64,000 nucleotides of DNA from Nonlabens spongiae (GTDB lineage Bacteria; Bacteroidota; Bacteroidia; Flavobacteriales; Flavobacteriaceae). Location: contig NZ_CP019344.1 in the NCBI RefSeq assembly GCF_002117125.1, forward strand, positions 2,880,501 to 2,944,500, written 5' to 3'. Each line of letters opens with the position of its first letter. Within the stretch, counting starts at the first letter, position 1. Both the position numbers and the translations under genes were made by a program. Below are positions 30,295 to 54,610 of this stretch, piece after piece. The notes beneath the pieces are model-generated. The model worked only from the letters and a program-made list of their open reading frames with translations. It was not told the DNA's origin and searched no databases.

Positions 30295-30320
30295 AATCGT
30301 GGTTTTTTAAGTGCCAATTA

Positions 30321-30336: not shown

Positions 30337-30345
30337 CAAGTCGGC

Positions 30346-30960: not shown

Positions 30961-30971
30961 TCTGATTGGAT

Positions 30972-31814: not shown

Positions 31815-31816
31815 TA

Positions 31817-32398: not shown

Positions 32399-32408
32399 AA
32401 TATTTGTT

Positions 32409-37310: not shown

Positions 37311-37380
37311 TGTAAATAAGGTAAATTCAATTAATTATATTTATAGGATTTTTCACTAAAAAAACGATTGAATATTAAAA

Positions 37381-38704
37381 TTGAACGAAACAGATAAAAT
37401 AAATTTTGACTTTGTAAAAGAGATTAAAGAACCCGGTGTTTATCAACTGCTTTTTCCTAAGAAAGAAGTAGGGTTGGCAGTTATGGTTTTATTTGAGAAA
37501 ATTGAAAATAAATCACTGCCTGATGGAAAATTCATCGAAAAAGACCTTCACGATGCATTTGCACAGATAAGCAAACCAAATGAAAGGTATCCAAAGGAAA
37601 TTTACAGTGCGCACATTGAAGAGCTTCAGGAATACTTTTTAGACTATAATCAAGAAACCCAAAAAATACTATTTTAAAGATTATGCCTATAGATTTTATA
37701 CTTACGCAAAGGAAACCTTGGAAGGTAATTTTAGTCCTACTCATATCGAAAAGATTTGTAGTTTGCTCACGGCTTCATTAAGGCAAAGGGAAACCTTAGA
37801 GGATTTAAAATTTTGGCTCACATCCGAGTTCAGAAAATATGAACCCGACCTCAGAGAACAGGTAGATTTTTTGGACAGACAGATTATAGAATCGGTAAAT
37901 AAGCTTAAAAATAATCCCACTAATTCCGATAAAAAATTTATTGATCTTCTAAAAGAAGTTGAAAACAACTTGGATAAAGCACAAGAGCAAAGCAGAGAAC
38001 TTGCATCAGCATATAGCGAAACCAAAATTATACGATCAATCCTAGAAAAGCGAGAAGACACCGATTCTGAAACAGACGATTTAATTGCAGAGGTTCATTT
38101 CTTTATAAAATATCTCAACGAAAGGTTAGATTCCATTGATAGAAAACTAGATAGAATTCAACCAAAAATCAGACAGTTGTTCGCTATTTTAAACAGGCCA
38201 CAGTTTAATAGTAAAATTGAAAAATTTCTACATTTCTTATTAGATAAAAGTACAGTCAATGGTAGGAAAGAAACACTTTTGCCAAAAAATATTAATAATC
38301 CTGCTTTGCATATAGATACACCCAACTTTACAATTATTGAGCGTGAAAGAGAATTGTTCCCTTCAAAACCAAAAAAACGAACTATTTACAAAACAAATAA
38401 AGTTAAGATTAAAGAAAATACGCAAGGTATTTTAAGGATACTCAGTCAACAGGATTTGATTAGGAAATGGGAACAACACATTATTGCCGAAATAGAATTG
38501 AGAGGAACTATTGACCTATCTGCAACTTTCTTTAAAATAATGGAAGAGACTAACGATGGACAAATAGCTGTAAGTGCAATTTACAGTTCAATTCAACAAG
38601 CACGTAAATCAAATGATTTTGATTTTAAAATGTACAAAATAAAGCAGACCAATAGTAAAATAGAACACATAAGTTTATGGAAAATGAACATACAGAAGAT
38701 ATAA
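37381..38704 (+). pseudogene. jetA: jetA (Wadjet), split by a +1 frameshift
   Basis: Two overlapping open parts look like one JetA, the kleisin-like subunit of the Wadjet SMC complex. The first (37381-37677, TTG start) has the N-terminal winged-helix-like part: EIKEPGVYQLLFPKKEVG, then ERYPKEIYSAHIEELQEYFL. The second is open in the +1 frame and continues KDYAYRFYTYAKETLEGNF. Skipping one T in TTTT at 37672-37675 (CTA TTT TAA) joins them into about 440 aa, the usual JetA size. This is a base insertion, a sequencing error or programmed +1 frameshifting. The last 28 bp overlap jetB. Confidence 0.72.
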
Positions 38705-39324
38705 GGGTACAATTTTTAAATCATCCGGACACCCAAGAACTATTTGCCTCTCTGGACTATATGTTAAAAGATGGTGTACATTTTCAAAGGGAAGGCAATC
38801 AGGCAAGGTTCTACAATTATATCTATTCAAACATTGATAGTTTAAAGGCATATTATCGATTTTTATTCAATGTTGAATTGACATTTGGTGGTACAGAAGC
38901 GAGTGGTTACTATTTTTTGGATTTTATTGGTTCCTCAAGAGGTAAGATAGATGCAGGACATAGACATCATATGAAAAGTGAGCACGTTATAATCGGGTTT
39001 GTTATTTACAAGATATTTTTCATTGACAACCAAGTTGATGTGGTTTCGGTAAAAGACCTACAAAAAAAGATAAGGATTGATTATGAAGATTTAAAACCTG
39101 GTATTTATAGGTTGATTGCAAAATCAAGGAACACCAATCCTGGTAATTTGAACGATGAAGCTATAGATGCAACCGTAGAATCAGCACTCAGGCAATTTAA
39201 AAAGATAGGTTGGGTAACGCTAAACGATGATGAGTTCGATTTGTTACCTGCTTTTGACAGGTTGATTGCCATTCACGAAGATTTAATAAACAATATGGAC
39301 GAAACACTAAATGAATTGAGATGA
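38677..39324 (+). CDS. jetB: JetB, Wadjet subunit (DUF4194-like)
   Basis: The 215-aa protein corresponds to the KITE-type winged-helix subunit JetB of Wadjet, which binds the kleisin JetA. Seen: a compact alpha/beta pattern with TFGGTEASGYYFLDFIGSS and the helix-rich C-terminus ending DRLIAIHEDLIN. It overlaps jetA by 28 bp and jetC by 4 bp, as in other jet operons. The identification rests on gene order and length more than on single residues. Confidence 0.78.
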   Translation: MENEHTEDIRVQFLNHPDTQELFASLDYMLKDGVHFQREGNQARFYNYIYSNIDSLKAYYRFLFNVELTFGGTEASGYYFLDFIGSSRGKIDAGHRHHMKSEHVIIGFVIYKIFFIDNQVDVVSVKDLQKKIRIDYEDLKPGIYRLIAKSRNTNPGNLNDEAIDATVESALRQFKKIGWVTLNDDEFDLLPAFDRLIAIHEDLINNMDETLNELR

Positions 39325-42300
39325 AACGATACCCTAGAATAAAAAGGCTATCTACTTTGGGCATTGTGCATCATCAATCGTTTGATTATGATTTTAACCC
39401 ATTTAGAACAGACTTTGTTGGCGAAGGCGGTTCTGGTAAGAGTATGATTGCAGATCTTTTGCAACTCATCTTTGTGGGTTCTGGTGCATTTCATTCGCCT
39501 ACGGATAGTAGTGAGCCAAGAAAACCAAAAACAATGGTGCTGAGAACTTCTGGTAAAGGCACAGATATGGGTTATACCTTTATAAATATTGAACTTAAAA
39601 AAGATGCTTTTGTAGTTATAGGAATATATCTTGAAAGCATAGGAAGTTCGCGGTCTTTTATAATTCAACAAGGCGAAAAATTTGAACCAGAGGACGAGTT
39701 AGTTCCATTCAACCATCCTCTTGGTTTTTCAGATTTTTTAAAGGATAACAGTTTGTTGCCTATTGAAGATTTAAAAAATCACATATTCGATACTAAAGGA
39801 TTTGTCTGTGAGTCGTGGACTCGAATGGATACATTTCACAAGCTATTGTTTAAAAATTTTATCATTCCAGTGGACTTATCCATCAACCAAGAATCCTTAA
39901 AAAGTTATGCTAAAATCATTCAAGCATTTTCAAGAGAGTCATTGGACATAAAGAAAAGCGAACGTATTCAAGAATTCCTTTTTGGAAATGAAAAAGAAAA
40001 AGAACTAAAGCACGAGTTTGACAAAGCTGTAGATGAACTGAGTGGCGATATCCGTCAATTTGAATCTAATAAAGATGAGATAGATAGGTTGACACATAAA
40101 CAAACAGAACTGCAAGAACTGCTTAATCTAAAAAAGGAAAGGGATAAAGCTAAAACAGAATTTATAAACACAAAATACCATTATTTAAATTACCAGATAT
40201 CATCATCTTATAATGATATGGTGCAAAGTTTGGATGCTTTTTTTAATAATCGAGATAAGTTGAGCGGACTTAGAAATTTTGCCGAAACCAAAGTTGAAAA
40301 ACTAAAATTGAACACACCTGCTTTGGATGAGGAATTTGAAGAGGCCTCTAAAGAAAAATTATTATGGAAAGGGAAAAGCGACGACTTGAAAAAGTACTTT
40401 TCTTGGATGGAACATTTTGAAAAAAATGGACAAGAACTTTCAGAACATTATAACAACTATCATAAGAACAAACAAGACATTGAGCGAATAGAAGAGTTCA
40501 AATCACTCTTAAAGGAAAATGGTATTTACGTTTTCTTCGGAAAAAATGACAAACTCAACAAAAACACCATTCAAACTATCGCCGAAACCCTAAAAGGATT
40601 TGAGTCTTCACTCGAAGAAAAAAAGAAATTAAAAGTTCTCAATAATTTAGATGACGCTTCTTCGCTTGCACATTGGGCGTTAAACCTTAAAAGAAAATTG
40701 AGCCGGAAAGAAGAAAGTGTTGTACATAAATATCAAAACGATAACATTACCACCAAAGAACCAACAAATGGAATCAATTCACGTTACATTCCAGAACCAA
40801 AACTGTTAATTGAAAATCTACAGGTTACAAAGGATGAGGAAAATGGTTTTTGGTTGGATTTAGGTGGTGTGCGTGAATACATCCCTTATGTAAAAGATCC
40901 TATATTCGATACTGGTAATTCAGATAAAATCAAGGACTATTTTTTAAACCAAAGGATAACGTTAGAAAATGACATCAAAGATTTAGAAAAGGAACTAAAG
41001 AATTGGACAATCTTAAATAAAATGCTGACTGCACTCGAAAATCCATCAGCATATTTTTCGTCTTGGGAATTAAAAGATGTTAATGCCAAGTTTAATAAGC
41101 ACGAGTTGTTTGAGGAAACCTCGGATGCTATTAAACGATATTTAAAACTTCTTGATGAGCACGAAAAGATTGATGACGGTCTAAAAAAGGCGAACAAAGC
41201 ATACAGGCAAATAGACGAAAAGCGTACTGACAATTCTTCTCTAATTAAAGGATTAGAGACGAGCCTAAAAACAATTTCAATTCCTGAAATTAATGCTGAT
41301 GTTCAGCAATTAATTACAAAATATAATTTTGAGACAAAAGATACGGGTGGTTTTAAAAACCTAAAAACTAAACTTAAGAAACAAAAGAATTTATATGATA
41401 CTTTTATTTCTATTCTAACAGAAGAATCAAAAAATGGCATCGCAGTAGAGGACTTGAAAAATGCAGATAGAGAGATAGATGCATTTAAAATTGAATTAGA
41501 AGAATTAACTTCAGGGAGTTCTAAACTTGTTTCAGAAGCTAAAATCCAAGAAGCCAATATTTCATCAGATTTTTTGGAAGAAAAAAGCATATATCATTCC
41601 GAATGTCAAAAACAATATAGTATCAAATATGATTTGGTGGTCAAGGAATTTTTAAAGCAAAAGGAAAACCGTTATTTAGGAACAGATGATTTTAAACAGA
41701 TTTGTTCAGAAATTTTACCACAAGAGATTTTTTCGGAAAAGGATTTAGAAGATGATGAAATAATTCCACGCATCAAAAAATTGCTTGACGATATAAATAT
41801 CAAGAACAAAAAGCTAAACATTAGAAAACTTCAGAAGTTAACAAGTGTCGTTGACAAAGTGAATACCGAAGTAAGTGAACAAATATATTACTCTAAGAAA
41901 ATAAGAGATTTTATTGATGCCGACGATAAAACAATTACAGGTGGCCACAGGGCAAAACTGTCTATTTACTTTGAAGGCAGTTATCCCAGAAGCTGGATGG
42001 AAGATTTTATTGAGAAAATACGTGAAGATATTAAGGTATCGAGCGATAACAACCTTTTTAATGACCTACAGGGCGTTTCTAATGAATTGGAAAAATACAC
42101 GTCTCTCGAAGAAAAAATGCAAGAAGCTTTTTACAGATGTGGTGGCTCTAGGAATCTAAAGCCCAAGGTATGGGAATTGCTTAATCCTAAATCTTACTAT
42201 GGACTCAATTTTACCATTCAGTCTTTACACGGAAAAAGAAACCCAGGAAGCACAAGCCAAACCTATGCAGCAATTGCACTTTTGTGTATTGCTAGACTTT

Positions 42301-42572
42301 CATTAATTAATAGGGATGCAAAAGATAAGGTTAGGGATGGAATACGATTTATGCCAATTGATGAAGCAGCTGGACTTGGAAGCAATTTTGATATGCTCTA
42401 CGATATAGCAAAGGCAAATGATTACCAAATCATATCACTATCAATACAACCTTATAAAGTTGATATGCTAAACCAATACATTTATCTGCTGCATAACAAT
42501 TTGGAAGAATCCGATAAGGTCAATTACGAACCAGTTCCAATTTTTGGCGATTTTGGCAATAACAACAACTAA
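39321..42572 (+). CDS. jetC: JetC, SMC-like ATPase of Wadjet
   Basis: This 1083-aa MukB-like SMC ATPase has Walker A GEGGSGKS at residues 34-41, long coiled-coil arms over about 230-900 with a hinge-like middle, and the C-terminal Walker B segment RFMPIDEAAGLG. In Wadjet the JetABC complex extrudes loops and senses small circular DNA, which JetD then cleaves. The frame is intact. The start overlaps the jetB stop by ATGA. Confidence 0.9.
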   Translation: MKRYPRIKRLSTLGIVHHQSFDYDFNPFRTDFVGEGGSGKSMIADLLQLIFVGSGAFHSPTDSSEPRKPKTMVLRTSGKGTDMGYTFINIELKKDAFVVIGIYLESIGSSRSFIIQQGEKFEPEDELVPFNHPLGFSDFLKDNSLLPIEDLKNHIFDTKGFVCESWTRMDTFHKLLFKNFIIPVDLSINQESLKSYAKIIQAFSRESLDIKKSERIQEFLFGNEKEKELKHEFDKAVDELSGDIRQFESNKDEIDRLTHKQTELQELLNLKKERDKAKTEFINTKYHYLNYQISSSYNDMVQSLDAFFNNRDKLSGLRNFAETKVEKLKLNTPALDEEFEEASKEKLLWKGKSDDLKKYFSWMEHFEKNGQELSEHYNNYHKNKQDIERIEEFKSLLKENGIYVFFGKNDKLNKNTIQTIAETLKGFESSLEEKKKLKVLNNLDDASSLAHWALNLKRKLSRKEESVVHKYQNDNITTKEPTNGINSRYIPEPKLLIENLQVTKDEENGFWLDLGGVREYIPYVKDPIFDTGNSDKIKDYFLNQRITLENDIKDLEKELKNWTILNKMLTALENPSAYFSSWELKDVNAKFNKHELFEETSDAIKRYLKLLDEHEKIDDGLKKANKAYRQIDEKRTDNSSLIKGLETSLKTISIPEINADVQQLITKYNFETKDTGGFKNLKTKLKKQKNLYDTFISILTEESKNGIAVEDLKNADREIDAFKIELEELTSGSSKLVSEAKIQEANISSDFLEEKSIYHSECQKQYSIKYDLVVKEFLKQKENRYLGTDDFKQICSEILPQEIFSEKDLEDDEIIPRIKKLLDDINIKNKKLNIRKLQKLTSVVDKVNTEVSEQIYYSKKIRDFIDADDKTITGGHRAKLSIYFEGSYPRSWMEDFIEKIREDIKVSSDNNLFNDLQGVSNELEKYTSLEEKMQEAFYRCGGSRNLKPKVWELLNPKSYYGLNFTIQSLHGKRNPGSTSQTYAAIALLCIARLSLINRDAKDKVRDGIRFMPIDEAAGLGSNFDMLYDIAKANDYQIISLSIQPYKVDMLNQYIYLLHNNLEESDKVNYEPVPIFGDFGNNNN

Positions 42573-42604
42573 TTTATAAAGAACCTAATTCGCACCTAAC
42601 AAGA

Positions 42605-43561
42605 ATGAGAAAAAACGTTGAATGGAAGTATTTGATTGGTCTTAACCAACTGTATGAAAAAGATAAAACCCATCTAAAAATAGGTAACAATAGCTTTGTT
42701 AAACAAGTTTTGATGAAGCAAAAAAAGTTAATTAAACCTAAGATGGGCAATCCTAAAATTCTGGAAGCCAAGTATGGTTTTAAGGAATATTATGAAAAAG
42801 AGTTTTTGGATTATTTTGAATACTATTCTAATTTTTTTCAAAAAGCAGGTTTAGAAAGTAACGCCCATAAAACGTATAATGAAGACGACTTAAAAAGTTT
42901 AGCTTTCATTTTTTATCAAAAAGACGAACTTAAAAAGAATCTTACAACTGAATATACTTTTTCGGCAAGAGTCTTTAAAGGTAAAGGTGCAAAGTATTTA
43001 ACAAATAGACCGAGTTTACGAAATGCGGTATTACAGCTTCTAGAAATAGACGAGTTCCCAGAAAAAGACCCAAAAAACGCACAATGGCGTTTTGTGGTGG
43101 ATTGCGAAAACTCTAAAATGATTGTTATTTGTGAAAATTTAGCTTGCTTAAAAGTACCTTATGAATACAAGCAGAATAATATAGAACTGTGGCACGTTGG
43201 CGGTAACAATACCAATCCATTAAAAGCTATTCCATCAACAAAACTAAAGCTACCGCTCTTTTATTTTTGTGATTGGGACCACCACGGACTTTCTATTTTT
43301 TCAAGAGTTAAAAGTATCTTTCAAGAAAAAGACAAATCAATTACATTAATTGAGCCTATATCGTTAAGCGAAGCCTTACCTGTAGATTCGCCACATCATT
43401 ATAGCAAATGGCGCAAAAAAGAATTTTCTGGATTAAAAAAAGATGATTTTTCAGAACAACAACAAAATAAAATATGTAGTCTAATTAATGACAATAATTG
43501 GGTTGAGGAAGAATCTATGGATTTATTATCCTCACTACGGAAGTTTGGTTTTATTCAATAA
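42605..43561 (+). CDS. jetD: JetD, Toprim-like nuclease of Wadjet
   Basis: The 318-aa nuclease subunit has a C-terminal Toprim fold: E177 in VICENLAC and the acidic pair D223-x-D225 in FCDWDHHGLS. It is somewhat shorter than some JetD proteins of other Wadjet types. In the studied systems JetD cuts circular DNA held by JetABC. The gene starts 32 bp after jetC. The catalytic residues look intact. Confidence 0.85.
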   Translation: MRKNVEWKYLIGLNQLYEKDKTHLKIGNNSFVKQVLMKQKKLIKPKMGNPKILEAKYGFKEYYEKEFLDYFEYYSNFFQKAGLESNAHKTYNEDDLKSLAFIFYQKDELKKNLTTEYTFSARVFKGKGAKYLTNRPSLRNAVLQLLEIDEFPEKDPKNAQWRFVVDCENSKMIVICENLACLKVPYEYKQNNIELWHVGGNNTNPLKAIPSTKLKLPLFYFCDWDHHGLSIFSRVKSIFQEKDKSITLIEPISLSEALPVDSPHHYSKWRKKEFSGLKKDDFSEQQQNKICSLINDNNWVEEESMDLLSSLRKFGFIQ

Positions 43562-43681
43562 AACATAAAATATATGTTTGTTAAATTTTTATCTTTGGAA
43601 AGATAAACTGTCTTCTACAATGCAAGGTTACTTTTGTTAATAGCATATTTAAGACAATAAATTTGAAATGCCTTTACCTTA

Positions 43682-45439
43682 ATGACATATATATTTATTG
43701 ACGAAATACTAAATAGCTACGCCATTGATTTGGAAATCTTAAGAAGAAACACTAATCTAAACAGTATATCACTATTACAGCATAAAGGTGTTTTTCATTT
43801 TGACGACAATTTTTTTGGAAACCAAAATAGTGAAGCTGAAAGCATAAAGTTTGATGATTTTTTATCTAAAGCAAGAACCAATAATTCCTCATTGGTAATA
43901 ACGCCAGAATATTCTTGTCCTTGGGCAAGTGTGAGAAACATTTTAGACGATGTAAATCGATTTCCCAATAGAGGTAAACTGTGGGTTTTAGGTTGTGAAT
44001 CCATTACACCTGAAGAAGTTGTGACTTTTCAAGAAACTTATAATGGATTAGATAATATTGAGGTAGTTTATAACGATGTCATCGATGATGCACCAGGTGG
44101 TATATTATTAGACCCTTGCTTATATATCTTTAAGGCAAACAATCAGGAAGGACAAGAAAAGCTGATAGTTCTAATGCAATTCAAGACTCAACATATGGGT
44201 GTTTGGAACAACGATTTAGAACAGCAAAAAATTATTTCTGGAGAACATTTATATATACTTCGTAACTCGGAAGATTCAATAAATTTAGCGACAGTAATAT
44301 GTTCAGATGCAATGATTTTTAATGGTGCAGCTATTTTTCCAAATGCACCGGGATTTTGGGATACGAGACCGTTTATAATCCTAAGTATTCAAATGAATCC
44401 AAAACCAAGTCACAGCGTATTCCGAACATTTAGAAATAATATATTAGAAAAATCAAACAAAGATGTTATATCCTTAAATTGGAGTTCTGAGGGAAGTGCA
44501 ACTGGTATTCCTAATTTTTTTGCTCATTATTGTAAATCTAATATTGCTATTACAACAGAGCACATAATCAATGAAAGTCCTCTTGAGGAAAAATTAATTG
44601 ATGATAACCACAATAAAGGTCTTTATTATTTATATAAAAAATCAGGAATACATAACTTCTATTTTACACCTGAAATTGAATTCTTTTATTTGAGGATTCG
44701 TAAGCCGGCAGTTGGGTTAACGCCATTACCAGTAAATCGAAGAAGAGGGCCTAAATTAGAGGAAATTTACACTTACAATGAGCAGTTAGAAATTTTCGAA
44801 CCAATACCTAATACAACCGATGGGTTCCGAGATTTTATAGATAGTATCCAAATTCAAAGTAAAAATATAACAAGTGAGGGTTTAAGTGTTATAGATAAAG
44901 AGCGCCTAATTGCCCTTACTACTGGAGAACTTTCAAAGTTTAAAACAGGTTCAAATTGGCACATAGTAAATAAGCTCAAAAGTTTTTTATTGGAAGATAC
45001 AGAAGCCATAAAAAGATATACAGTAACATTTGATAATGATGGTAAAGAATATCGTACTACTCAGATTGGAAGAGTCGAAGACCTCAATCTAAATATATTG
45101 ACCAATAACGATTTATTCCCTGATATCATAGCATCATTTAAAGACAATTGCAATGAAGTTATGTTCTTTAACAAAAACGGAATGAAGTACAATTATAATT
45201 TAGTCAGTAATGACGACCAAATAGCAACCGTTGCATTTATAGGCCACAAATCAAAGGCTGATGCACAACAAATGTTATATAAACTCACAAAACTATTTCC
45301 AGCCGAAGATTTAACCAATAAAAGAATCGTAGTATGGTACAAGCCAAATATGATTGCCAATAATTATGCTTATGAAGCCACCGATGTACCAAGAATTACT
45401 TTAGAAAAACCAACTAATATTACCTCAATAACAAAATAA
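43682..45439 (+). CDS. Nitrilase-superfamily domain protein
   Basis: The N-terminal 350 residues look like a carbon-nitrogen hydrolase fold with the catalytic triad in order: E76 (LVITPEYSCP), K168 (LMQFKTQ) and C207 (ATVICSDA). The C-terminal 235 residues are an uncharacterised extension. Nitrilases cleave amides or nitriles; here the substrate is unknown. Its stop overlaps the start of the Rad50-like ATPase gene (TAATG), so the two are translationally coupled. It follows jetD by 120 bp, within a defence-gene block, and could be the effector of a two-gene system. Confidence 0.65.
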   Translation: MTYIFIDEILNSYAIDLEILRRNTNLNSISLLQHKGVFHFDDNFFGNQNSEAESIKFDDFLSKARTNNSSLVITPEYSCPWASVRNILDDVNRFPNRGKLWVLGCESITPEEVVTFQETYNGLDNIEVVYNDVIDDAPGGILLDPCLYIFKANNQEGQEKLIVLMQFKTQHMGVWNNDLEQQKIISGEHLYILRNSEDSINLATVICSDAMIFNGAAIFPNAPGFWDTRPFIILSIQMNPKPSHSVFRTFRNNILEKSNKDVISLNWSSEGSATGIPNFFAHYCKSNIAITTEHIINESPLEEKLIDDNHNKGLYYLYKKSGIHNFYFTPEIEFFYLRIRKPAVGLTPLPVNRRRGPKLEEIYTYNEQLEIFEPIPNTTDGFRDFIDSIQIQSKNITSEGLSVIDKERLIALTTGELSKFKTGSNWHIVNKLKSFLLEDTEAIKRYTVTFDNDGKEYRTTQIGRVEDLNLNILTNNDLFPDIIASFKDNCNEVMFFNKNGMKYNYNLVSNDDQIATVAFIGHKSKADAQQMLYKLTKLFPAEDLTNKRIVVWYKPNMIANNYAYEATDVPRITLEKPTNITSITK

Positions 45440-48400
45440 TGACCTTAGAGAATATCAAAGAAATACTTCCTTCAGATTTTACAATCACAAGTTCAAGTGA
45501 AACAGGAAAGCAATTATACCTCAATCAAAAATATAAGGATGATATGGTTGCTAAATACATCTTTGATATCGATTATGAAAATGAAGATATTAATCTTAAC
45601 GAGTTTCAAGAGAAGTACTTGTCTAAAGATTATTTTAATTCAGAAGGAAATCTTCAATGGAATTATTATTTAATCTTTCTAAGAAACGGTTTGCCTTCTG
45701 CAACTAAGAGAGACATTGAAAAAGACGAAACCTACGCCAGAAAATTTGTTTTTACTTTAGATGAACTAAAAGATTACTTAACCTATGAAAAAGCATCTTC
45801 AGCCGCAGAGGAAAATATTGTTGAGAAATGGAAAGCCCAACTAACTGAAGCCGATTTGCAAGAAGTGTTCAGTAATGAAAATTATGTAGATGCTGTGCCA
45901 CGTTATATCGATAATAAAACTAAGGGTGTAGAAGTGCTTCAACCAGTAGATTCTAAACCAGATGAGACTCAAAATTTTGTTTTGGACGAAGTATCATCTT
46001 TAAAATTAAATGATGATTATCGAGATTATCCTGAAAAAAGAAATTTTGAATTCAGTAAAGTGAATCTTATTTCTGGCCCTAATGGTGTTGGGAAAACATC
46101 CTTAATGGAAGCTATTGAATTGGTGATTACAGGAAACAACGCCAGAAATGAAAATGATTTGCCTAATCCTGGCGCAATAGTAGCAAAGTATGATGTAGAT
46201 TTAGATGAAAAAGAGGATGCCTTTGTAAACTCTATTCCAAAATTTAAGGCAAGAGACTACTATTGGTACAATACGCGATACAGCCAACGAGGGTCTAATA
46301 CGCTTCATCATAGTTTTAACAGATACAACTTTTATAATAGCGATAGTGCCTATCATCTTTCCAATAATGCCAGTAGCAATGACTTAACCACTTACCTATC
46401 TGCCATTGCCCTTGGTACAGAGTTTGGCGCAATTAGAGATAGGGTAATTAAATTTAGGGATAGGATTTCAAAAAAGTTAGATAAGTTCAACGATACTACT
46501 AAACGCGAGGAAGCCATTAAGGCAAAAGCCAATGATCAAAAAGAAAGGTTAAAACAAATTTCTGACCCAGAGGAAGTATTTCAAAAATTTTTAACTGAAG
46601 TAAAACAATTAAAGTGGAAGGGATTTCTTCCACAGACTATAAATGATGAAACTAAAAAGTTTGAAGAAGATTATAGCGTTGCTTTTTCACTTCTCAATTC
46701 AATAATACACTCTAAAGCAGTAAAGGAATCTGATGTTTTGAAGAGAATATCCAACTTAGAAACCTTGAAATCTCAATTAAAAACCCTTGCAGTTAATAAA
46801 AAAGAATTGAATGGTAAAATTAAGGAATATCAAAAAATTGTAGTGGAAAGCGAATCAACTCTAACACGTATTGATAATGCGTTATTATATTTAAAAAAAC
46901 CCAAATCTTTTAGAATTGCCACTATTGATGAGGACATCAAAACACTAGAAAAAAAGGTAAATAAAATAGAGACATTCCTTTCTGAAATTGAAGCACTCGA
47001 TATAAGTAAAATAAGTGCTAACAACTCTACTTTTCAAGAGTTCAACAATACTCAAGATAACCTTTTGACTAATAAAAAGAATGAATTAAAGCGCAGTAGA
47101 GAACAGCTTCAAGTTCTAAAAAATGCCTTGGATAAGATAAATGCTTTAATGATAGATATTAAGTATTATGGGAGAGAATATATTGAAGCAAAAGAAAATC
47201 TGGACGCTTGCCCCTTATGTAATACACCACATACCAAGGCAGAATTAGAAGCTAAGGTGCATACTCAATATAATGATAAAGAAAGTGCGAAAAGCATCGA
47301 AATCTTCAATAAAAACATTAGTGAGCTTGAAAAAGAAATATCCGAAATCAATATTAAACTAGAACAGTCAAAAAGCTATGAAAAGTTACTTAAGGGCTAC
47401 TTTACTGAAGAAGACCTGAAAGTAAAAATTTCAGAAGTGCAGCCCTTACTTGATACTGAAAAATCACAATTAGCCATTTCAAAAAAAGAATTAGACCAAC
47501 TGAAGAACTTGTCTTTAGATTTAAGGTTAGAAGGATATAGTTTAGATGATTTTTTAAAACTTAAAAACACACTTTCTTCTAAATACCCAACTTTAGAATT
47601 TAAAGCTGAGAACAAATCAAAATTCGAAGATTTAAAAAACAATGCTCAGAAAAAAATTGATACGAATAGAAGTGAAATTGAAAAGGTAAATGAGCAATTA
47701 TCTAAGCTTGACGAGGCGATTAGAGAGCTATTGGACGATAACTTTAGCCAAGATAGATACAACGAAGAAATTGATTTTCAAATTAAAGAATATCAATCTT
47801 ATAGAGATTATTTTGTAAAACTCAGAACGTACATTGATTTTACTAAAGATGATTTTATAATTGAAATGAGGCATAGTTTAGAGAGTTTAAATAAAACCTT
47901 TTCAACTTTTAAAGAACAAAAAGTCAAGTTTGAAGAACTTACTCTAGCTAATAATCTTATTAAAGAGGCAGACAGTAGAATAGAAAAGCTAAAGCCTAAA
48001 AAGGCCAGGGCAACATCTGCTTTAAAAGTTTTGAATAAGATTATTTTAGAAGACAGTGAAGAAAAAGTATTAGTCGATTTTTTTCAAAAAAATGAAAATG
48101 AAATAAGTGAAATCTTTACAAGCATTCACGCACCAAAAGAATTTTCCAGACTATCATTTAGTTCAAATAAAATAGTTTTATATAAAAAAGACTTAGAGCA
48201 AGAAGTACCAATATCACAGATTAGTACTGGTCAACGAAGTGCGTTGGCACTTTCTATTTTTCTAGCTTTAAATAAAAAGCTCGCTAAAGGACCTAACCTA
48301 ATCATTTTTGATGACCCAGTAACTTATACTGATGACCTAAACATTCTTTCATTTTTAGACTACCTTAGAAGTATGGTGATTAATGAATCTAGGCAGTTGA

Positions 48401-48504
48401 TATTTGCTACAGCAAGCAATAAAATTGCTAGACTGTTTGAGAAAAAATTTGATTTTTTGAAGTCAGACTTCCAAAAGTTCGAGCTTTCAAGAAGTATAAC
48501 TTAA
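45439..48504 (+). CDS. Rad50/SMC-like ATPase with zinc hook
   Basis: The 1021-aa ATPase has Walker A GPNGVGKT at residues 213-220, two long coiled coils, a zinc-hook motif CPLC (C591, C594) at their apex, an ABC signature ISTGQRSALALS and Walker B LIIFDDPV near the C-terminus. The 200-residue N-terminal extension before the ATPase head is unusual for Rad50 and may contact the nitrilase partner. No Mre11 nuclease is encoded nearby. It is coupled to the nitrilase gene by a 1-bp overlap. Confidence 0.85.
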   Translation: MTLENIKEILPSDFTITSSSETGKQLYLNQKYKDDMVAKYIFDIDYENEDINLNEFQEKYLSKDYFNSEGNLQWNYYLIFLRNGLPSATKRDIEKDETYARKFVFTLDELKDYLTYEKASSAAEENIVEKWKAQLTEADLQEVFSNENYVDAVPRYIDNKTKGVEVLQPVDSKPDETQNFVLDEVSSLKLNDDYRDYPEKRNFEFSKVNLISGPNGVGKTSLMEAIELVITGNNARNENDLPNPGAIVAKYDVDLDEKEDAFVNSIPKFKARDYYWYNTRYSQRGSNTLHHSFNRYNFYNSDSAYHLSNNASSNDLTTYLSAIALGTEFGAIRDRVIKFRDRISKKLDKFNDTTKREEAIKAKANDQKERLKQISDPEEVFQKFLTEVKQLKWKGFLPQTINDETKKFEEDYSVAFSLLNSIIHSKAVKESDVLKRISNLETLKSQLKTLAVNKKELNGKIKEYQKIVVESESTLTRIDNALLYLKKPKSFRIATIDEDIKTLEKKVNKIETFLSEIEALDISKISANNSTFQEFNNTQDNLLTNKKNELKRSREQLQVLKNALDKINALMIDIKYYGREYIEAKENLDACPLCNTPHTKAELEAKVHTQYNDKESAKSIEIFNKNISELEKEISEINIKLEQSKSYEKLLKGYFTEEDLKVKISEVQPLLDTEKSQLAISKKELDQLKNLSLDLRLEGYSLDDFLKLKNTLSSKYPTLEFKAENKSKFEDLKNNAQKKIDTNRSEIEKVNEQLSKLDEAIRELLDDNFSQDRYNEEIDFQIKEYQSYRDYFVKLRTYIDFTKDDFIIEMRHSLESLNKTFSTFKEQKVKFEELTLANNLIKEADSRIEKLKPKKARATSALKVLNKIILEDSEEKVLVDFFQKNENEISEIFTSIHAPKEFSRLSFSSNKIVLYKKDLEQEVPISQISTGQRSALALSIFLALNKKLAKGPNLIIFDDPVTYTDDLNILSFLDYLRSMVINESRQLIFATASNKIARLFEKKFDFLKSDFQKFELSRSIT

Positions 48505-48573
48505 TATGGACTTTTTGTGTTTTAGCAAACGACTTATTCAATGCTATCTTTTCCTTTTCTTACCAATCTATTG

Positions 48574-49626
48574 CTAAGTTAAATAGTATATTGCCTTAAA
48601 CCAATAAAAAAACGCTTCAGGGTTGCTCTTTTTCAATTTATTTAGCTTGGTGAATTGAGGGTTCTTAATCAACCAATCTTTAACCTCAAGCGGATTTTTA
48701 AACCTTTCGATTTCGCTATCAATACCAGCCTTAATCAGTTCAGATAGGTATGCAACTTTTGAAGCAGCTGTAATGGCTTCTTCAATATTGAATCTTACCA
48801 ATGTAAAATTGGTAAAATTGCTTATTCCAGTTTGTAGATGTTTAAACTCATTAGATTTAGTGTTACGAGTAGAAAGAACATAACACGCTTCTCGGGTGTC
48901 TTCCAAAACCTGTTCTGAGGTTATGTCTAATTTTCTAAACGCTATTTCCTCTGCAACTACTTTTGTGTAACTGTTACGGACTGTTGCCAAGTCCGAAATA
49001 TTATCCATTAAAAACGCTACGTCGAATAACTGTTTGATAATTTCAACTGGTCTTTCTTTGCTGTATAAAATTCCTGTGGTTTTTGGTGCAAAAGCAGTTA
49101 GTTTATCGCCTAAAATAGCATCAAACGTTGGCATTTTTACTGTTGTGATTTCCTCTTGTGTTTGAAGCCAGTTGTGAGCAATAGGAATTTCAGTAAGTTC
49201 AGGATAAGGATTTGGCGTGTATAGCACATCCAGTAAAATTGGCTCAACCCGTCCATCTACATTGCTTTTGTAGAACATCTTGAAATGATCAACTGGTGCA
49301 TCTGGCGTGTGCTTTCTGTCATTGTCATCTTCCCAATGTATAAACGCTTCGATTTCCTTGCTTATAACTTCAAGGACAGATTCTATTTCGCTTTGGCTTT
49401 GCTCGGTAATAATATCGATGTCGATTGAAAATCTTTTAGGTTCTTCTGTTGCCAACAATAATGCAGTTCCACCTTTAAAAATAAAATCGAGTTTGTTGAT
49501 TTTAAGTTGTTCCAAAAACAATAAGGCATAGACAACCTTTTCAATAAGTTTTGGGTCATACTTTTTACCTAGTCTTTTTTTTACTTCGTAAATCCACTCT
49601 GGTTGATATGTTGTTTCTTTAATCAT
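48574..49626 (-). CDS. abiEii: AbiEii-like nucleotidyltransferase toxin
   Basis: The 350-aa protein begins with FIFKGGTALLL and FSIDIDIIT, the nucleotidyltransferase signature of the AbiEii/AbiGii family. AbiEii toxins halt growth on phage infection, probably by modifying tRNA. It is in an operon with the AbiEi-like gene 24 bp upstream. An inverted repeat TTTGGCAA / TTGCCAAA spans the junction between the two genes. Confidence 0.88.
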   Translation of the reverse strand: MIKETTYQPEWIYEVKKRLGKKYDPKLIEKVVYALLFLEQLKINKLDFIFKGGTALLLATEEPKRFSIDIDIITEQSQSEIESVLEVISKEIEAFIHWEDDNDRKHTPDAPVDHFKMFYKSNVDGRVEPILLDVLYTPNPYPELTEIPIAHNWLQTQEEITTVKMPTFDAILGDKLTAFAPKTTGILYSKERPVEIIKQLFDVAFLMDNISDLATVRNSYTKVVAEEIAFRKLDITSEQVLEDTREACYVLSTRNTKSNEFKHLQTGISNFTNFTLVRFNIEEAITAASKVAYLSELIKAGIDSEIERFKNPLEVKDWLIKNPQFTKLNKLKKSNPEAFFYWFKAIYYLT

Positions 49627-49637
49627 TAAAATTAATG

Positions 49638-49666
49638 TTTGGCAATAAAATTAATTATTTGCCAAA
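49638..49666. promoter_or_regulatory. Inverted repeat TTTGGCAA / TTGCCAAA at the abiEi-abiEii junction
   Basis: Arms at 49638-49645 and 49659-49666. The arm and flank TTGCCAAAGTT recur in the longer inverted repeat at 50397-50436, so both are probably bound by the same regulator, AbiEi. Confidence 0.6.
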
Positions 49667-50487
49667 GTTAAATTGCTTAAGTGTTCAACTTCCATCTCTC
49701 TATTGCGCCTGTGAGCATAGCGTTTCATTTTACTTTTGCTTATCTCAAACTTTTCGAATGCCGATCGGTAAATAAATTCCAATTCACTTTGTTGTGCACC
49801 AAATAAATTAGTGTCTATAAGCATATCGACCAACAATTTTTCAAGGGATGGGATAACGATATTTTCGATTTCGGCTAAAGGTGCTTCGGATACCAATTGT
49901 TTAAGGATTATTACGTCATCACTATTATGAATGTACAGTTCAAATGTTTCAGCATCTGGTTCTATAAAAACGGTTTTACCCTGGTCTTTCAACTTGTAAA
50001 AAATGGACTGTGCCACATCTTTTTCCAATTCAATTATGGTGTAAAACTTAAATGGTTGGTGGCGCATAAATTCGTTTAACCATAAAGTGTTCCATACACA
50101 GAATTCAATGAATGGATAATCTTTTTTTATTTTATTGTACAGTCGTTTTAATTTGGTATCAATAACTGGAATAAATCTATCTTTTCCACTTAAAGTGTAT
50201 TTACCTCTGGATGGGTTTTTTAACACACCTTCTTTTTTAAGTTTAGACAAATACACAGTGATAGAACTTTCCTTTAAGTTTGGAAAATCTTTCTGAATAA
50301 GCTCTACCAGACTGGTTTTTGAAATAGCTTGCTGGTCAACAAAGTATGTTGGTATTTTATCTTTAATAGTTTGTTCCAGAACAATGATATTTTGAGTTAA
50401 ACTTTGGCAAAATACACATTTTTTGCCAAAGTTTAATAGTGAATAGCAATTACTTCCGTTTATCCGTAGCCTTTGTATCAAAAGCAA
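49651..50487 (-). CDS. abiEi: AbiEi-like antitoxin/repressor, start uncertain
   Basis: This is the antitoxin of a type IV AbiE pair. Seen: an N-terminal winged helix (ISKTSLVELIQKDFPNLKESSITVYLSKLKKEGVL) and an antitoxin C-terminal domain of about 170 aa. AbiEi proteins bind inverted repeats and repress their own operon. The only ATG (50487) lies inside the upstream ATPase gene and before the operator, which is unlikely. The protein probably begins around 50379-50388 with a non-ATG codon (CTG, ATT or ATC). Confidence 0.7.
   Translation of the reverse strand: MLLIQRLRINGSNCYSLLNFGKKCVFCQSLTQNIIVLEQTIKDKIPTYFVDQQAISKTSLVELIQKDFPNLKESSITVYLSKLKKEGVLKNPSRGKYTLSGKDRFIPVIDTKLKRLYNKIKKDYPFIEFCVWNTLWLNEFMRHQPFKFYTIIELEKDVAQSIFYKLKDQGKTVFIEPDAETFELYIHNSDDVIILKQLVSEAPLAEIENIVIPSLEKLLVDMLIDTNLFGAQQSELEFIYRSAFEKFEISKSKMKRYAHRRNREMEVEHLSNLTLANN
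50397..50436. promoter_or_regulatory. AbiE operator: 16-bp perfect inverted repeat
   Basis: Left arm TTAAACTTTGGCAAAA (50397-50412), an 8-bp spacer, and the exact reverse complement at 50421-50436. It sits just upstream of the likely abiEi start. It shares the core TTTGGCAA with the second repeat 750 bp away. Confidence 0.78.
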
Positions 50488-51112
50488 TCAAATTAAAAAG
50501 TTCCCGCATTCTGCTACGAACACGGTTTCCGTAGCGTTCTTCCAATTCTTCGGCATTGAGGTTGGTGGTTGCGTGGGTTTTTATTTTACGCTTTGTCTGT
50601 AGGTAAAGCTCGTATCGAGATAAGAGCACTTCGCCCATTACGTTTAAATCCTTTCCATAAAACCGACCAGCTGGCTCTACGCCCAAATCATCAAAACAGA
50701 AAAATTTGGAGTTACCATATTCTTCAATGGTTTTAAAACCGAGATGGTTAAAACTAAACGCTACATTCCGGCAAGGAATCATTTCATAAGGTCGTTGCAT
50801 TGGAACGATATGGCGCAGCAATTTCATCAAGGTGGTTTTTCCACATCCTACAGGTCCAGAAAGTAAAATACCTTTGTCGATATCAATTCCGTTCTTTTCA
50901 CAGTTCTCTTTGTCCTTGATGAAATAATGGCAGAGGTTACGTATGATAGCCGTGTCCTCATCGTAGATTCGGAAATTTTTTCCAAAGAGCATTTTTCCCT
51001 TGGCATTCAGGTAAATCAGGATTTTGTCAAAATCGTAGAGAACACTCTTGCCGTCAAACTTGCCAAGCGAATATTCCACGCCACCTTCGGTGATTTTAGA
51101 GGGGTTGTCCAT
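50450..51112 (-). CDS. DnaC/IstB-like AAA+ ATPase
   Basis: The 220-aa ATPase has Walker A SGPVGCGKTTLM, Walker B KFFCFDDLG and the sensor segment THATTNL, then an arginine-rich C-terminus (RVRSRMREL). It is like helicase loaders. The ATG at 51112 (MDNPSKITEGG) is chosen because it overlaps the previous gene's stop by 17 bp; the frame stays open further upstream but in antisense-like, low-complexity sequence. It belongs to a three-gene replication/regulation operon of the element. Confidence 0.82.
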   Translation of the reverse strand: MDNPSKITEGGVEYSLGKFDGKSVLYDFDKILIYLNAKGKMLFGKNFRIYDEDTAIIRNLCHYFIKDKENCEKNGIDIDKGILLSGPVGCGKTTLMKLLRHIVPMQRPYEMIPCRNVAFSFNHLGFKTIEEYGNSKFFCFDDLGVEPAGRFYGKDLNVMGEVLLSRYELYLQTKRKIKTHATTNLNAEELEERYGNRVRSRMRELFNLIAFDTKATDKRK

Positions 51113-51851
51113 AATCTTTGTTTTTAGTGGTTCGCAAGTTGTCCTTGATTTGGGACGCTTGTTTTTTGTTTGGTTTGTTTTCTTTGGCATATAACTCTGT
51201 CCTGCCCATCCAGTTAGTGGCCAAGGCTCGCCAATCTCGAATTTCTTTTCCATCGCTCGTTTGCCAATTCCGAGTTTCATAATACTCGAAGAATTTTTTT
51301 CCTTCATCAGCATTAAAACCTTTTTCAATAAAAAAATCAATAACGGCCTGCCAGCCCTTTGGTTGTTTTAGATTGTTTACTTGTTTGGTATTGTTTATAG
51401 TAGATACCAATGCTTGTCCACTCACGGGACGGTTTGAGTCCACCACTTGTCCATTTTTGGGACGGTGCTGTCCCACAACAGGTTCACGGATGGGATGGTA
51501 CTCTTCCGCAAGCTGTTCTAATATGGGATCGTACCGTCCCATATCCGGTTCATCACTTGTACCGATAATGGCCATCTTGATTTTGCTTCCTTTGTAAGGG
51601 TTATTAGAAGGAAAATAGGTGAGATAGTTCCAAGAATCAAGGTTTGTCACACATCTATGGTAAGTGGATTTTGAGCCAATCTTGGCTACACGCATTAATT
51701 CTCGACGGTTCACATAAAATTCATCTGCAAATCGGCTACTGTTCCATTCTTGGAACAGTGCCATATAGAGACTTATATGCGTTGGATTGAGGCGGTCATC
51801 AAAAAAGAACTTTTCAAAAGCCGCATTAAGTAGCTTTATGTAGTTCATCAT
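51096..51851 (-). CDS. Winged-helix replication-initiator-like protein
   Basis: The 251-aa protein has an N-terminal winged-helix region (LNPTHISLYMALFQEWN, then NRRELMRVAKIGSKSTYHRCVTNL) and a variable middle. Its C-terminal DnaD-like part has FFEYYETRNWQ and WRALATNWMGR. It sits directly before a DnaC-like ATPase gene, the common arrangement of a replication initiator and a helicase loader on mobile elements. The start could be at 51851 or one codon later. Confidence 0.65.
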   Translation of the reverse strand: MMNYIKLLNAAFEKFFFDDRLNPTHISLYMALFQEWNSSRFADEFYVNRRELMRVAKIGSKSTYHRCVTNLDSWNYLTYFPSNNPYKGSKIKMAIIGTSDEPDMGRYDPILEQLAEEYHPIREPVVGQHRPKNGQVVDSNRPVSGQALVSTINNTKQVNNLKQPKGWQAVIDFFIEKGFNADEGKKFFEYYETRNWQTSDGKEIRDWRALATNWMGRTELYAKENKPNKKQASQIKDNLRTTKNKDYGQPL

Positions 51852-52136
51852 TTAAGAATTTAGCTTATGCTGTACACGATTTGATGTCATCACGTTTTGA
51901 ATTTCCTCGGCATCGTAGTAGATGATGCCCCCAACTTTGGTGTATGGCAATGTTCCGTTGATGCGAAGATTCTGTAATGTTCCTGGACTGACTTGAAGCA
52001 AGTCCATAACTTCGGAAGATTTGAGATATTTTTTGAGTTTTCCAGTGGCTTGTTTGGAAAGAAGGTTTTTAATGTCATCGAGCAATTCTATTTTAAATTC
52101 TCGAAGATCGTCTGTGGTAATAATATTTGCTGGCAT
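51852..52136 (-). CDS. Excisionase-like helix-turn-helix protein
   Basis: This 94-aa protein has a C-terminal MerR/excisionase-type helix-turn-helix: YLKSSEVMDLLQVSPGTLQNLRINGTLPYTKVGGIIYYDAEEI. On Bacteroidota conjugative elements such proteins control excision or transfer gene expression. It is the first gene of the three-gene operon; the next gene begins directly after its stop. Confidence 0.8.
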   Translation of the reverse strand: MPANIITTDDLREFKIELLDDIKNLLSKQATGKLKKYLKSSEVMDLLQVSPGTLQNLRINGTLPYTKVGGIIYYDAEEIQNVMTSNRVQHKLNS

Positions 52137-52483
52137 AATAGAACGGTTTTAAAAGAAAGGGGCTATCATTATCGCTTTCAACTAATTTAATAGCCCCTGA
52201 CTTGATTTAACTCACGAGCTTTAGTATTTTAATAAAAAAGTGTTCGTGAATCTGTCGATTTGACTTTCGTTCTACAAATTTGGGATGATTTATTGGATAT
52301 TAATCCCAAGTCATACCCAAGTTGGGTGTTTTTATATACTCATTTTCAATGGTTTAAATTAGTTTTGTTTAGTGGTTGTCCTGAAAATAGTATAAACCAA
52401 ATGATAATAACTAAAATTAATTTTATTTTTTCCCAAGTAGTACCCAACTTGGGAAGAAATTTAACATTTAAGCGAAATGGATT
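52137..52483. promoter_or_regulatory. Regulatory gap with CCCAAGT repeats, before the excisionase-like gene
   Basis: This 347-bp gap has two related dyad clusters: 52305-52327 (CCCAAGT-CAT-ACCCAAGTTGGG) and 52432-52453 (CCCAAGT-AGT-ACCCAACTTGGG). In each, a CCCAAGT half-site precedes a near-palindrome. A further half-site TTTGGGA is at 52279. They are candidate binding sites for RteC or the excisionase-like protein. An open frame on the plus strand here is a chance shadow. Confidence 0.6.
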
Positions 52484-53335
52484 TTATCCATCCGTTTCCT
52501 CCATTCTCCTTAAAAGTGTTGCTTTCAGTCTATCGATAAACTTGGTTTGGTCAATTTTCCGTTCTCTAATTTCGAGAAAAGTTCTATATACATTTCCAAG
52601 TTTTAGTTCAAAGATGTCTTCACAAGCCGAAGCCATTTCTTTAATCCCAGCCGTACCACTTTTTATCGCTCCTGAAGCCTGTAAGGCATAAATCAATTCA
52701 ATTAGGTCTGTTTTTGAGGCTGTCCATCCAAGTCGCTCGCCATTTGATAAAGTATTCAGCTTATTCGGTACACCGTTTGACAGATCCCTTAAATAACTTA
52801 ACTCTTCTACGTAATGACTGATTAATAAATCGTAGGCCATAATTTTGGCAATTGCATTATCGTGGCTTGTGGAAAATTCTGCATCGGTATAAAAATGAGA
52901 TGTGTTTGACACCAGACTGATTTTATCGTTTCCTCGTAGAAAATAGAATTCATCCAAAAGTTCAGAATCCTCCCTGTAATATTTTATAAAATCTATATTT
53001 CGCCGATTGCTTTCTTGTAGTTTATTTATTTCTAAATCGATAAATTCCTGTTGAGATTTTATGGTGCCGGCAGGTCTGTTTATTAAAAAATTGTAGAGTT
53101 TGGCGTAAAACTTCAATCTGCTATAAACATAAGGTTTGTGCTTTTTAAAGAATATGATTTCATTTTGTTTGTCTTGAAATTCATTTTCCCTTACACAGAT
53201 TCGCAGTTTCTGTAAGTATTGTCTTGAAATGGAAATACCTTGTTCAACATTATTGAAATCGTTGAGATTAGATTCCTCAACTGCTTTTATTTCCTCTTTG
53301 TAATTATCTAATATTTTATGAATCAGCTTATGCAA
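52484..53335 (-). CDS. rteC: RteC-like regulator
   Basis: The 283-aa protein resembles RteC, the activator of excision genes of CTnDOT-type elements. Seen: a helical N-terminal region, HVEELSYLRDL-like helix pairs, and a C-terminal winged-helix-like part LGWTASKTDLIELIYALQASGAI. It lies upstream of the excisionase-like gene on the same strand with dyad repeats between them, the arrangement expected for RteC control of excision. Confidence 0.82.
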   Translation of the reverse strand: MHKLIHKILDNYKEEIKAVEESNLNDFNNVEQGISISRQYLQKLRICVRENEFQDKQNEIIFFKKHKPYVYSRLKFYAKLYNFLINRPAGTIKSQQEFIDLEINKLQESNRRNIDFIKYYREDSELLDEFYFLRGNDKISLVSNTSHFYTDAEFSTSHDNAIAKIMAYDLLISHYVEELSYLRDLSNGVPNKLNTLSNGERLGWTASKTDLIELIYALQASGAIKSGTAGIKEMASACEDIFELKLGNVYRTFLEIRERKIDQTKFIDRLKATLLRRMEETDG

Positions 53336-53395
53336 AATATTTGGGGCTTTAGATTTGGGTTAATTGTCAACAACTATGGTTATGTGCTTATTTTT

Positions 53396-54610
53396 TTATG
53401 GCGGGTTTTTGAAAAAGAATAAAAAACCAATAACAGCCAAAATAATGCTGCCAGCAATTATAAAAGGGTAGTAAAAACCGCCTGAAAGCAACCAAGTCCC
53501 TAAAACAGGCCCTAGAATTTGACCAACACTATTAGTAGAGCTCTGAATAGAAATGTTCCTGCCAGTATTTTGCTTTGATATTAATGAAACCGCAGAAAGT
53601 AAATTTGGGGTTACCATAGCACCTCCAGCAGCGAAAACAACGATTAATACATATACCAAGTATTCATTCTTAAAAAAAGGAAAGACAATTAAGGATAATC
53701 CAGATATAAACAACCCTAATGCAATTTGTTTCTTTGTCGATAAAAACTTCTCTCCATAAGTAGCGAACACAGGTTGTAAAACAGCCATTATTGAACCACA
53801 TAGCATAAAACCAATACCTATTTGGTTACTGTTAAACCCTAATTCATCTTTCCCATATATTGAAAAGACGGTTTCAAACAGCGTTACTACAAATTGGATG
53901 ACAAACGACAGAACCAGTAATACGGCAAAATATTTGGTAAATGTGAATCGCAACCTCACTTTTTGGGTTGTGAACTTATGTACACGTGTAGTGTTTTTTA
54001 ACCATTTCATAACAATAAATAGGACAATCAATCCTAGTAGTGCTGCGAAAAGAAATGGCGTTGAAAATCGGTCTAAATGTAGCAGACCAAAAGAATATTG
54101 TAAATGAAGGTCAGTTTGTGAAAGTAACCCACCAATAACAGGACCAAAAATAACCCCAGAACTTATTGCAACACCAGACCAGGCCATTATCTTTGTTCTT
54201 CGTTTTTCAGAAGTAATGTCGCTCAAATATGCGTTGCTAACTGGAATAACTGATGACGTAAAAATACCACCAAAGATGCGAGCAACATATAGCATCGTTA
54301 ATGATGTAGCAAGACCGGTAAGTAATTGCATAATTACAAAACCAATAAGGCCACAAATGATAATAGGTTTACGACCGTAATTGTCTGATAGCCTTCCCCA
54401 AACCACCACAAATAGTAATTGGAAAAATGGATAAATGCTTGTGAGCAATCCAATATGAAAATTGATAAGGTTTGTATCAAGATTGTCTTTTAATGCTAAT
54501 CTTTCGGTATAGTAAGGAAGGGTTGGCAATAATATACCATAGCCCAACATCACTACAAATAAACTCAACAGGATTAAAAATATCCTGTTGAGTTTTTCTT
54601 TTTTGTCCAT
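53396..54610 (-). CDS. MFS drug/solute exporter
   Basis: The 404-aa transporter has 12 predicted helices and the MFS loop motif GRLSDNYGRKP between helices 2 and 3, plus the motif C-like GPVIGGLLSQ in helix 5. It resembles drug-exporting MFS proteins (TetA-like group); the substrate is unknown. It lies directly after the P-type ATPase gene (no intergenic base) and so is likely co-transcribed. It may export metal chelates or antimicrobials. Confidence 0.85.
   Translation of the reverse strand: MDKKEKLNRIFLILLSLFVVMLGYGILLPTLPYYTERLALKDNLDTNLINFHIGLLTSIYPFFQLLFVVVWGRLSDNYGRKPIIICGLIGFVIMQLLTGLATSLTMLYVARIFGGIFTSSVIPVSNAYLSDITSEKRRTKIMAWSGVAISSGVIFGPVIGGLLSQTDLHLQYSFGLLHLDRFSTPFLFAALLGLIVLFIVMKWLKNTTRVHKFTTQKVRLRFTFTKYFAVLLVLSFVIQFVVTLFETVFSIYGKDELGFNSNQIGIGFMLCGSIMAVLQPVFATYGEKFLSTKKQIALGLFISGLSLIVFPFFKNEYLVYVLIVVFAAGGAMVTPNLLSAVSLISKQNTGRNISIQSSTNSVGQILGPVLGTWLLSGGFYYPFIIAGSIILAVIGFLFFFKNPP

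Follow-up and report, generated by a model that had tools for sequence, protein, structure and literature searches.

A 64,000-nucleotide stretch of Nonlabens spongiae DNA (NCBI RefSeq assembly GCF_002117125.1, contig NZ_CP019344.1, positions 2,880,501 to 2,944,500 of the forward strand), called the window here, carries two adjoining genes that encode a nitrilase-fold protein and a Rad50/SMC-like ATP-binding cassette (ABC) ATPase. A preliminary description of this DNA had proposed the pair as an undescribed two-gene defence system. The analysis presented here indicates that the pair looks like a divergent two-gene member of the Lamassu (ABC-3C) superfamily and not like a new kind of system. Papers are cited by PMC number. 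The features of the pair, in window coordinates, are as follows.

43682..45439, + strand: nitrilase-fold effector (LmuA-like), 585 amino acids; an open reading frame with homologues, a structure model and nitrilase-superfamily matches in the PDB
43745..44755, + strand: nitrilase domain, residues about 22-358; the model span of the nitrilase-superfamily rows of VIA-align
43907..43909, + strand: E76 (in TPEYSCP), invariant, proposed catalytic Glu from its place in the nitrilase order
44183..44185, + strand: K168 (in QFKT), invariant, proposed catalytic Lys
44219..44221, + strand: E180, also an invariant Glu; its spacing makes it a candidate for the fourth position of a catalytic tetrad
44300..44302, + strand: C207 (in ICSDA), invariant, proposed nucleophile; in the model, strand 201-206 is followed by helix 207-211
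44804..45436, + strand: C-terminal part of the effector, residues about 375-585, outside the nitrilase match; possible docking module by comparison with Lamassu LmuA (PMC10586767)
45437..45441, + strand: TAATG stop/start overlap, with 1 bp common to both genes; probable translational coupling
45439..48504, + strand: Rad50/SMC-like ABC ATPase (LmuB-like) with an N-terminal middle-component-like domain, 1021 amino acids
45439..46011, + strand: middle-component-like (MC1) domain, residues 1-191; MComp1 in relatives and a profile match to stand-alone MC1
46075..46098, + strand: Walker A GPNGVGKT, residues 213-220; G213, N215, G218, K219 and T220 invariant
47209..47220, + strand: zinc hook CPLC, residues 591-594, in a loop between long helices of the secondary structure; C591, P592 and C594 invariant
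48220..48246, + strand: ABC signature ISTGQRSAL, residues 928-936
48298..48315, + strand: Walker B LIIFDD, residues 954-959, with Asp at the catalytic Glu position; D958 invariant, D959 in at least 90% of sequences

The structure predicted for the first protein (pLDDT, the predicted local distance difference test, 91.3) has the alpha-beta-beta-alpha nitrilase fold. Among the nitrilase-superfamily entries of the PDB that a fold search with this model returned are Lnt, an N-terminal protein amidase and glutaminase parts of NAD+ synthetase, whose scores differ by no more than about 2.5 Z units. E76, K168 and C207 lie at the residues given in the preliminary description and appear to form the Glu-Lys-Cys triad in the order of the nitrilase superfamily. 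These three residues and E180 are invariant in 83/83 aligned sequences, in 35/35 and in 19/19 divergent bacterial and archaeal copies, where each count includes the window's own protein. The proposed assignment of E180 comes from its spacing, by comparison with the nitrilase tetrad. Homologues of the window nitrilase number 382 at E<=1e-3 among 7993 candidates scored. Among the matches listed by name (the best 120 of 382 and the best 120 of 235, 240 rows), relatives are called 'hypothetical protein' or similar, and one is a 'predicted amidohydrolase'. No relatives were found in the phage collection; one was seen in viral contigs. The C-terminal part of the effector gave no convincing Pfam match among 83 members and no profile match to four effectors of ABC-3C operons of the metallo-beta-lactamase (MBL) type.

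The Walker A motif of the second protein lies at the residues given in the preliminary description, and the CPLC hook, ABC signature and Walker B that it mentions are present, as is the 1-bp overlap at the gene junction. C591, P592, C594, D958 and P960 are invariant in 58/58 ATPase sequences, window included. PADLOC models of LmuB match 44/44 ATPases scanned (E 1.1e-36 for the window protein) and 3/3 plasmid copies. Residues 1-191, which had been overlooked, constitute a separate conserved domain that looks like a fused ABC-3C middle component. PF20289 MComp1 (Pfam) is present in 17/44 ATPase relatives at E<=0.01, a count of presence that says nothing of position within the members, and gave no match in the window ATPase itself. 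The N-terminus matches stand-alone MC1 proteins by profile (probability 92%, E 6.4e-7, 49 columns), and a Methanosarcina operon has an MC1-like domain on a separate protein. The middle component of Lamassu/ABC-3C systems (LmuC/MC) thus appears to be present as the N-terminal domain of the ATPase.

The two genes occur together. The species-genome scan yielded 37 loci with the nitrilase, one of which (L038) ends at a contig edge, and an ATPase sequence lies beside the nitrilase in 36/36 assessable loci. The spacing from stop to start is between -86 and +9 bp in 33/36 genome loci; the exceptions are L015 and L025, which have split nitrilase frames, and L020, which is rearranged. Pairwise distances of the nitrilase and the ATPase are correlated (r = 0.95 over 32 pairs; the largest value in 2000 permutations is 0.31), which fits joint inheritance without proving interaction.

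Several PADLOC results tie relatives of the nitrilase to Lamassu. LmuA models match 4/83 members of nitrilase alignment A1, weakly, with a best E of 0.001. The LmuA model PDLC03850 matches 4/13 divergent nitrilase relatives, the best at E 1.2e-6 over residues 73-306. A true member of PDLC03850 was found in 1/398 genomes (E 5.4e-248; L067/L069) and in 0/247 genomes, 0/10 genomes and 0/14 control genomes of the other sets. In this member, FPE, VQPK and LCFDW occupy the positions of the catalytic motifs (profile alignment E 2.1e-4, probability 46%), and the ATPase encoded by the next gene has an N-terminal extension ahead of Walker A. Judging from these motifs, the PDLC03850 model appears to describe a nitrilase. 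In L069 (5706-12455), neither the PDLC03850-type nitrilase nor its ATPase has an intact frame, both being interrupted, and transposase-like open reading frames lie within and around the operon. In a 2023 review of SMC-based immunity, 'C-N hydrolase' appears in the list of LmuA/Lamassu effector domains (PMC10586767). With a PDLC03850 member that carries nitrilase motifs and this entry in the review, a nitrilase-type Lamassu is already catalogued. The window branch is distant and for the most part has no name, and none of the LmuA models, PDLC03850 included, detects the window copy.

The likeness to Lamassu/ABC-3C covers a Rad50/SMC-like ATPase with a zinc hook, a middle component, a tight operon, a mobile defence setting and an adjacent effector gene that combines an enzymatic N-terminal domain with a separate C-terminal part. 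The pair differs from the three-gene systems (LmuA-LmuC-LmuB; DdmABC) in that its middle component is fused to the N-terminus of the ATPase and in that its effector is a nitrilase, whereas theirs is Cap4 or another nuclease. The window-type ATPase has about 1020 amino acids, compared with about 650 in LmuB, and has Asp at the Walker B Glu, where LmuB generally has Gln (PMC10586767). MBL-type ABC-3C operons (MBL protein, protease-type effector, MC1 and ATPase) contain the nearest non-nitrilase ATPase relatives seen on plasmids, and by profile their MC1 belongs to the same family. In those operons, however, MC1 is a separate protein, the effector reads as trypsin-like (by eye here) and an MBL-fold nuclease lies upstream (PMC12799240). 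The ABC head and zinc-hook architecture resemble Rad50-Mre11/SbcCD, but the partner in the window is a nitrilase and not an Mre11-type nuclease. The pair is not itself of the Wadjet type (a MukBEF-like SMC protein with kleisin, KITE and JetD), as the ATPase gives only weak P-loop matches to JetC models, at E 1.1e-5 and weaker, and Wadjet is encoded by a distinct operon upstream.

Certain results weigh against this assignment. For the nitrilase, PF00795 is absent by sequence from 83/83 members at E<=0.1 (1/10 divergent relatives gave E 0.033, below the cut-off), and a profile search of PDB sequences returned nothing at E<=10. Three housekeeping CN-hydrolases of the same genome, compared by single-sequence profiles, also gave nothing (E 0.04-0.64); a fourth (L044) was missed by motif and lies outside this set. 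Because these three comparisons are null, membership in the nitrilase superfamily rests on the predicted fold, the motif order and the relatives, and the family is not tied to classic nitrilases by sequence alone. No PADLOC LmuA model matches the window nitrilase or, at E<=0.001, three relatives on plasmids. For the middle component, the MC1 profile match is confined to 49 columns. The stand-alone MC1 profile fails to recognise both the MC1 of Methanosarcina sp. KYL-1 (E 0.025) and the extension of the PDLC03850 ATPase (E 0.088), which gives a weak match to the MC1-like profile of the window family (E 0.0032). For the pairing, three loci (L017, L025 and L034) have a split or truncated ATPase frame, and r = 0.95 cannot tell co-evolution from shared descent.

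Taking both sides together, the best explanation is probably a two-gene ABC-3C system of the Lamassu superfamily, in which the ATPase is a DNA sensor with a fused middle component and the released nitrilase is the effector. The equivalent of LmuC/MC1 would be fused at the N-terminus of the ATPase, and therefore two genes would do the work of three. The ATPase would dimerise via its zinc hook and may sense aberrant ends or hairpins in phage or plasmid DNA, as Lamassu is thought to do (PMC12904381; PMC10586767). At rest, the nitrilase would be docked on the ATPase/MC1 core through its C-terminal part, which would keep the enzyme unassembled. Target DNA and ATP would alter the core and free the nitrilase, which would then self-assemble. 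In activated Lamassu, LmuA is liberated, and formation of its homotetramer switches on the Cap4 nuclease (PMC12409362, addendum). The Cys-Glu-Lys site of the freed nitrilase may cut an essential small molecule or peptide at an amide or nitrile, and growth of the infected cell would stop by abortive infection. Nitrilases are normally active as oligomers, and since their activity depends on this, a nitrilase suits such a release-and-assemble scheme. We infer the DNA trigger, docking, release and oligomerisation, as well as the catalysis, substrate and abortive infection, by analogy with Cap4-type Lamassu and with DRT1. DRT1 belongs to the DRT1/UG nitrilase-fused reverse transcriptases and is the characterised nitrilase effector found in the literature searched. 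Its nitrilase domain serves as a defence effector, requires the catalytic Cys, causes abortive infection and is assembly-dependent (PMC13275509). DRT1 differs from the window pair in its control, which lies with a reverse transcriptase and with DNA adducts and not with an ABC ATPase (PMC13275509). No reverse transcriptase domain was matched in either window protein, and one nitrilase relative (L032) weakly matches PADLOC RT_UG5-nitrilase (E 0.016).

The earlier proposals of the ATPase as the likely sensor and the nitrilase as the likely effector thus gain support, the latter by analogy. The nitrilase may instead be a regulator, one that produces or breaks down a signal or that acts by protein modification, and not a toxic effector. 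The NAD+ synthetase glutaminases, the N-terminal protein amidase and Lnt among its fold matches are compatible with such a role. This reading is nevertheless unlikely, as the partner of LmuB in Lamassu is the effector (PMC10586767) and the DRT1 nitrilase works through abortive infection (PMC13275509).

That the pair is independent of Lamassu and shares with it a generic Rad50/ABC core alone, close to what was first proposed, is quite improbable. It would account for the window nitrilase having no PADLOC or NCBIfam match and no significant Pfam or PHROG match, and for relatives that are mostly 'hypothetical protein' among the matches listed. 'Lamassu' and 'nitrilase' were found together in no paper of the literature searched, which did not cover the primary ABC-3C and Lamassu papers; 'Lamassu' and 'C-N hydrolase' occur together there solely in PMC10586767. 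The likeness nevertheless extends to the middle component, the gene order and a PADLOC LmuA model with nitrilase motifs, and C-N hydrolase is a listed Lamassu effector (PMC10586767). A search of defence-system models had been proposed; the window ATPase was recovered by the LmuB models and the window nitrilase was not recovered. With LmuB matches in 44/44 ATPases, the MC1-like N-terminus, relatives matched by LmuA models and the PDLC03850 member with nitrilase motifs, the pair cannot be called undescribed, and at the superfamily level it largely belongs to a system that already has a name. The enzyme fold, sensor, pairing and setting of the preliminary description therefore stand, and its placement of the pair outside named systems does not.

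The pair lies between a Wadjet set and AbiE genes, as had been described.

38677..43561, + strand: Wadjet jetB, jetC and jetD, immediately upstream; PF21980 MksE (jetB) and PF09983 JetD_C (jetD), with jetC named by position
48574..50487, - strand: AbiEii and AbiEi, convergent and downstream; PADLOC AbiEii 3.8e-136 and AbiEi 1.2e-90

No significant match was obtained for jetA or jetC, and both names come from position. Wadjet sets homologous to that of the window adjoin the pair in L002, L003 and L005, and in L018 (3838-11770) a divergent Wadjet set (JetD 34% identical) ends 10 bp ahead of the nitrilase start. This adjacency favours the view that the pair and Wadjet form one six-gene unit. Against it, 32/36 assessable loci have no match to the window Wadjet proteins in their flanks at E<=1e-5, a count from which a more divergent Wadjet would escape and in which some flanks are short. 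In addition, the window jetA frame (37382-38704) is interrupted and open only from 37718 (328 amino acids), compared with 440 amino acids in L002, L003 and L005, and because of this interruption the window copy of Wadjet may be inactive. Wadjet and the pair also diverge differently between the window and L005: identity is 81-89% for the Wadjet proteins but only 55% and 47% for the two proteins of the pair, and L005 lacks the AbiE genes. A six-gene unit is therefore very improbable. Within this same element, cargo is either swapped or evolves at unequal rates. A stretch of about 1 kb (36295-37311), with a transposase-like open reading frame at 36395-37300, is present in the window and absent at the same site in L002, L003 and L005; it is a recent insertion just upstream of jetA.

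The pair is rare and very sporadic. In a phylum sample of 395 genomes, the nitrilase profile gave seven matches at E<=1e-3, of which two were true, and the ATPase profile at E<=1e-20 recovered these two genomes and no others. The remaining five were rejected as chance matches in long open reading frames (57-67 profile positions, E 4e-4 to 1e-3), and three of them (L049-L051) look SecA-like by eye. The nitrilase was matched in 3/397 genomes of the family (E<=1e-10) and in 0/3 other sampled genomes of the genus. The pair is also carried by four plasmids, Polaromonas pPNAP01 and three haloarchaeal plasmids, in a tally made without matches H9 and H11. On pPNAP01, it lies two genes from Hachiman hamA and its helicase neighbour. 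An 18-kb stretch of the window (37311-55436) is 99.0% identical to one in Bizionia echini (L003), which belongs to another genus, and this identity indicates recent horizontal transfer. The same stretch is 95.6% identical to Mesonia aquimarina (L002), and both loci are near copies of the window. With such sporadic occurrence, a place on plasmids and on an element common to different genera, and Wadjet and AbiE, Hachiman or restriction genes as neighbours, a housekeeping or DNA-repair complex of Rad50 type with an accessory amidase is hardly credible.

Neighbours of homologous pairs include components of type I and type II restriction systems (PADLOC matches). In L012 (8661-17813) and L013 (8661-19394), the pair seemingly lies between genes resembling type I restriction specificity and R subunits (by eye). 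The neighbour scan took 114 open reading frames from 33 loci, at most two per side, with L001, L002, L003, L020, L038 and frames of <100 or >1600 amino acids excluded. As its counts cover the first 25 of 379 families (each with at most 3/114 members) and have no control set, no enrichment is claimed. In L031 (5165-15537), Rad50-like and Mre11-like frames flank the pair, with the Mre11-like start on both sides (by eye), as if the pair had been inserted at or near an mre11 gene. Further cargo was recognised by eye at 21235-34805 of the window, comprising HipA-like (21235-22482), TIR-like (25852-26916) and MBL-fold (27035-28126) genes, beside conjugation-like genes at about 28538-34805.

A variant arrangement occurs in Methanosarcina. 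In Methanosarcina sp. KYL-1 (L020, 4869-13427), the nitrilase lies between genes for proteins of 1687 and 560 amino acids. The larger combines a P-loop (GIAGIGKT) at its N-terminus with repeats and a C-terminal ABC head (E 2.1e-86) in which no CPxC or CxxC motif was found. The smaller has an MC1-like domain (E 1.4e-30) followed by repeats. The nitrilase was found in 2/30 genomes of the genus, and the second (L066, 2604-13925) has the same gene order; its MC1-like protein has a nitrilase-like C-terminal stretch in which Cys is missing at the expected place. STAND, TPR and the nitrilase-like stretch were named by eye and not by family search. As read from their sequences, these operons appear to separate the MC1 and ATPase modules naturally and to graft an NLR-like (STAND-TPR-like) module onto the ABC-3C core.

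A wider proposal is put forward tentatively and may well prove wrong. Assembly-gated immune effectors might include nitrilases as a second class of wide occurrence. In bacteria and archaea, several hundred sequence clusters, most of them unnamed, would pair a nitrilase with an ABC DNA sensor that has the middle component built in, and Methanosarcina would use a chimeric STAND-TPR (NLR-like)/ABC-head sensor with MC1 on a separate TPR protein. The Lamassu effectors studied in detail are mainly nucleases, and little work has been done on the nitrilase class. In the members scanned, the nitrilase effector has been overlooked by Pfam and mostly by PADLOC, and most named copies among the matches listed are 'hypothetical protein'. 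With this pair there is a second nitrilase effector, one that is genetically separable and has a DNA sensor as its likely partner, and the question of the substrate can therefore be approached with two independent systems. If the proposal is true, bacterial immunity would have a new target in the substrate shared by these nitrilases and that of DRT1.

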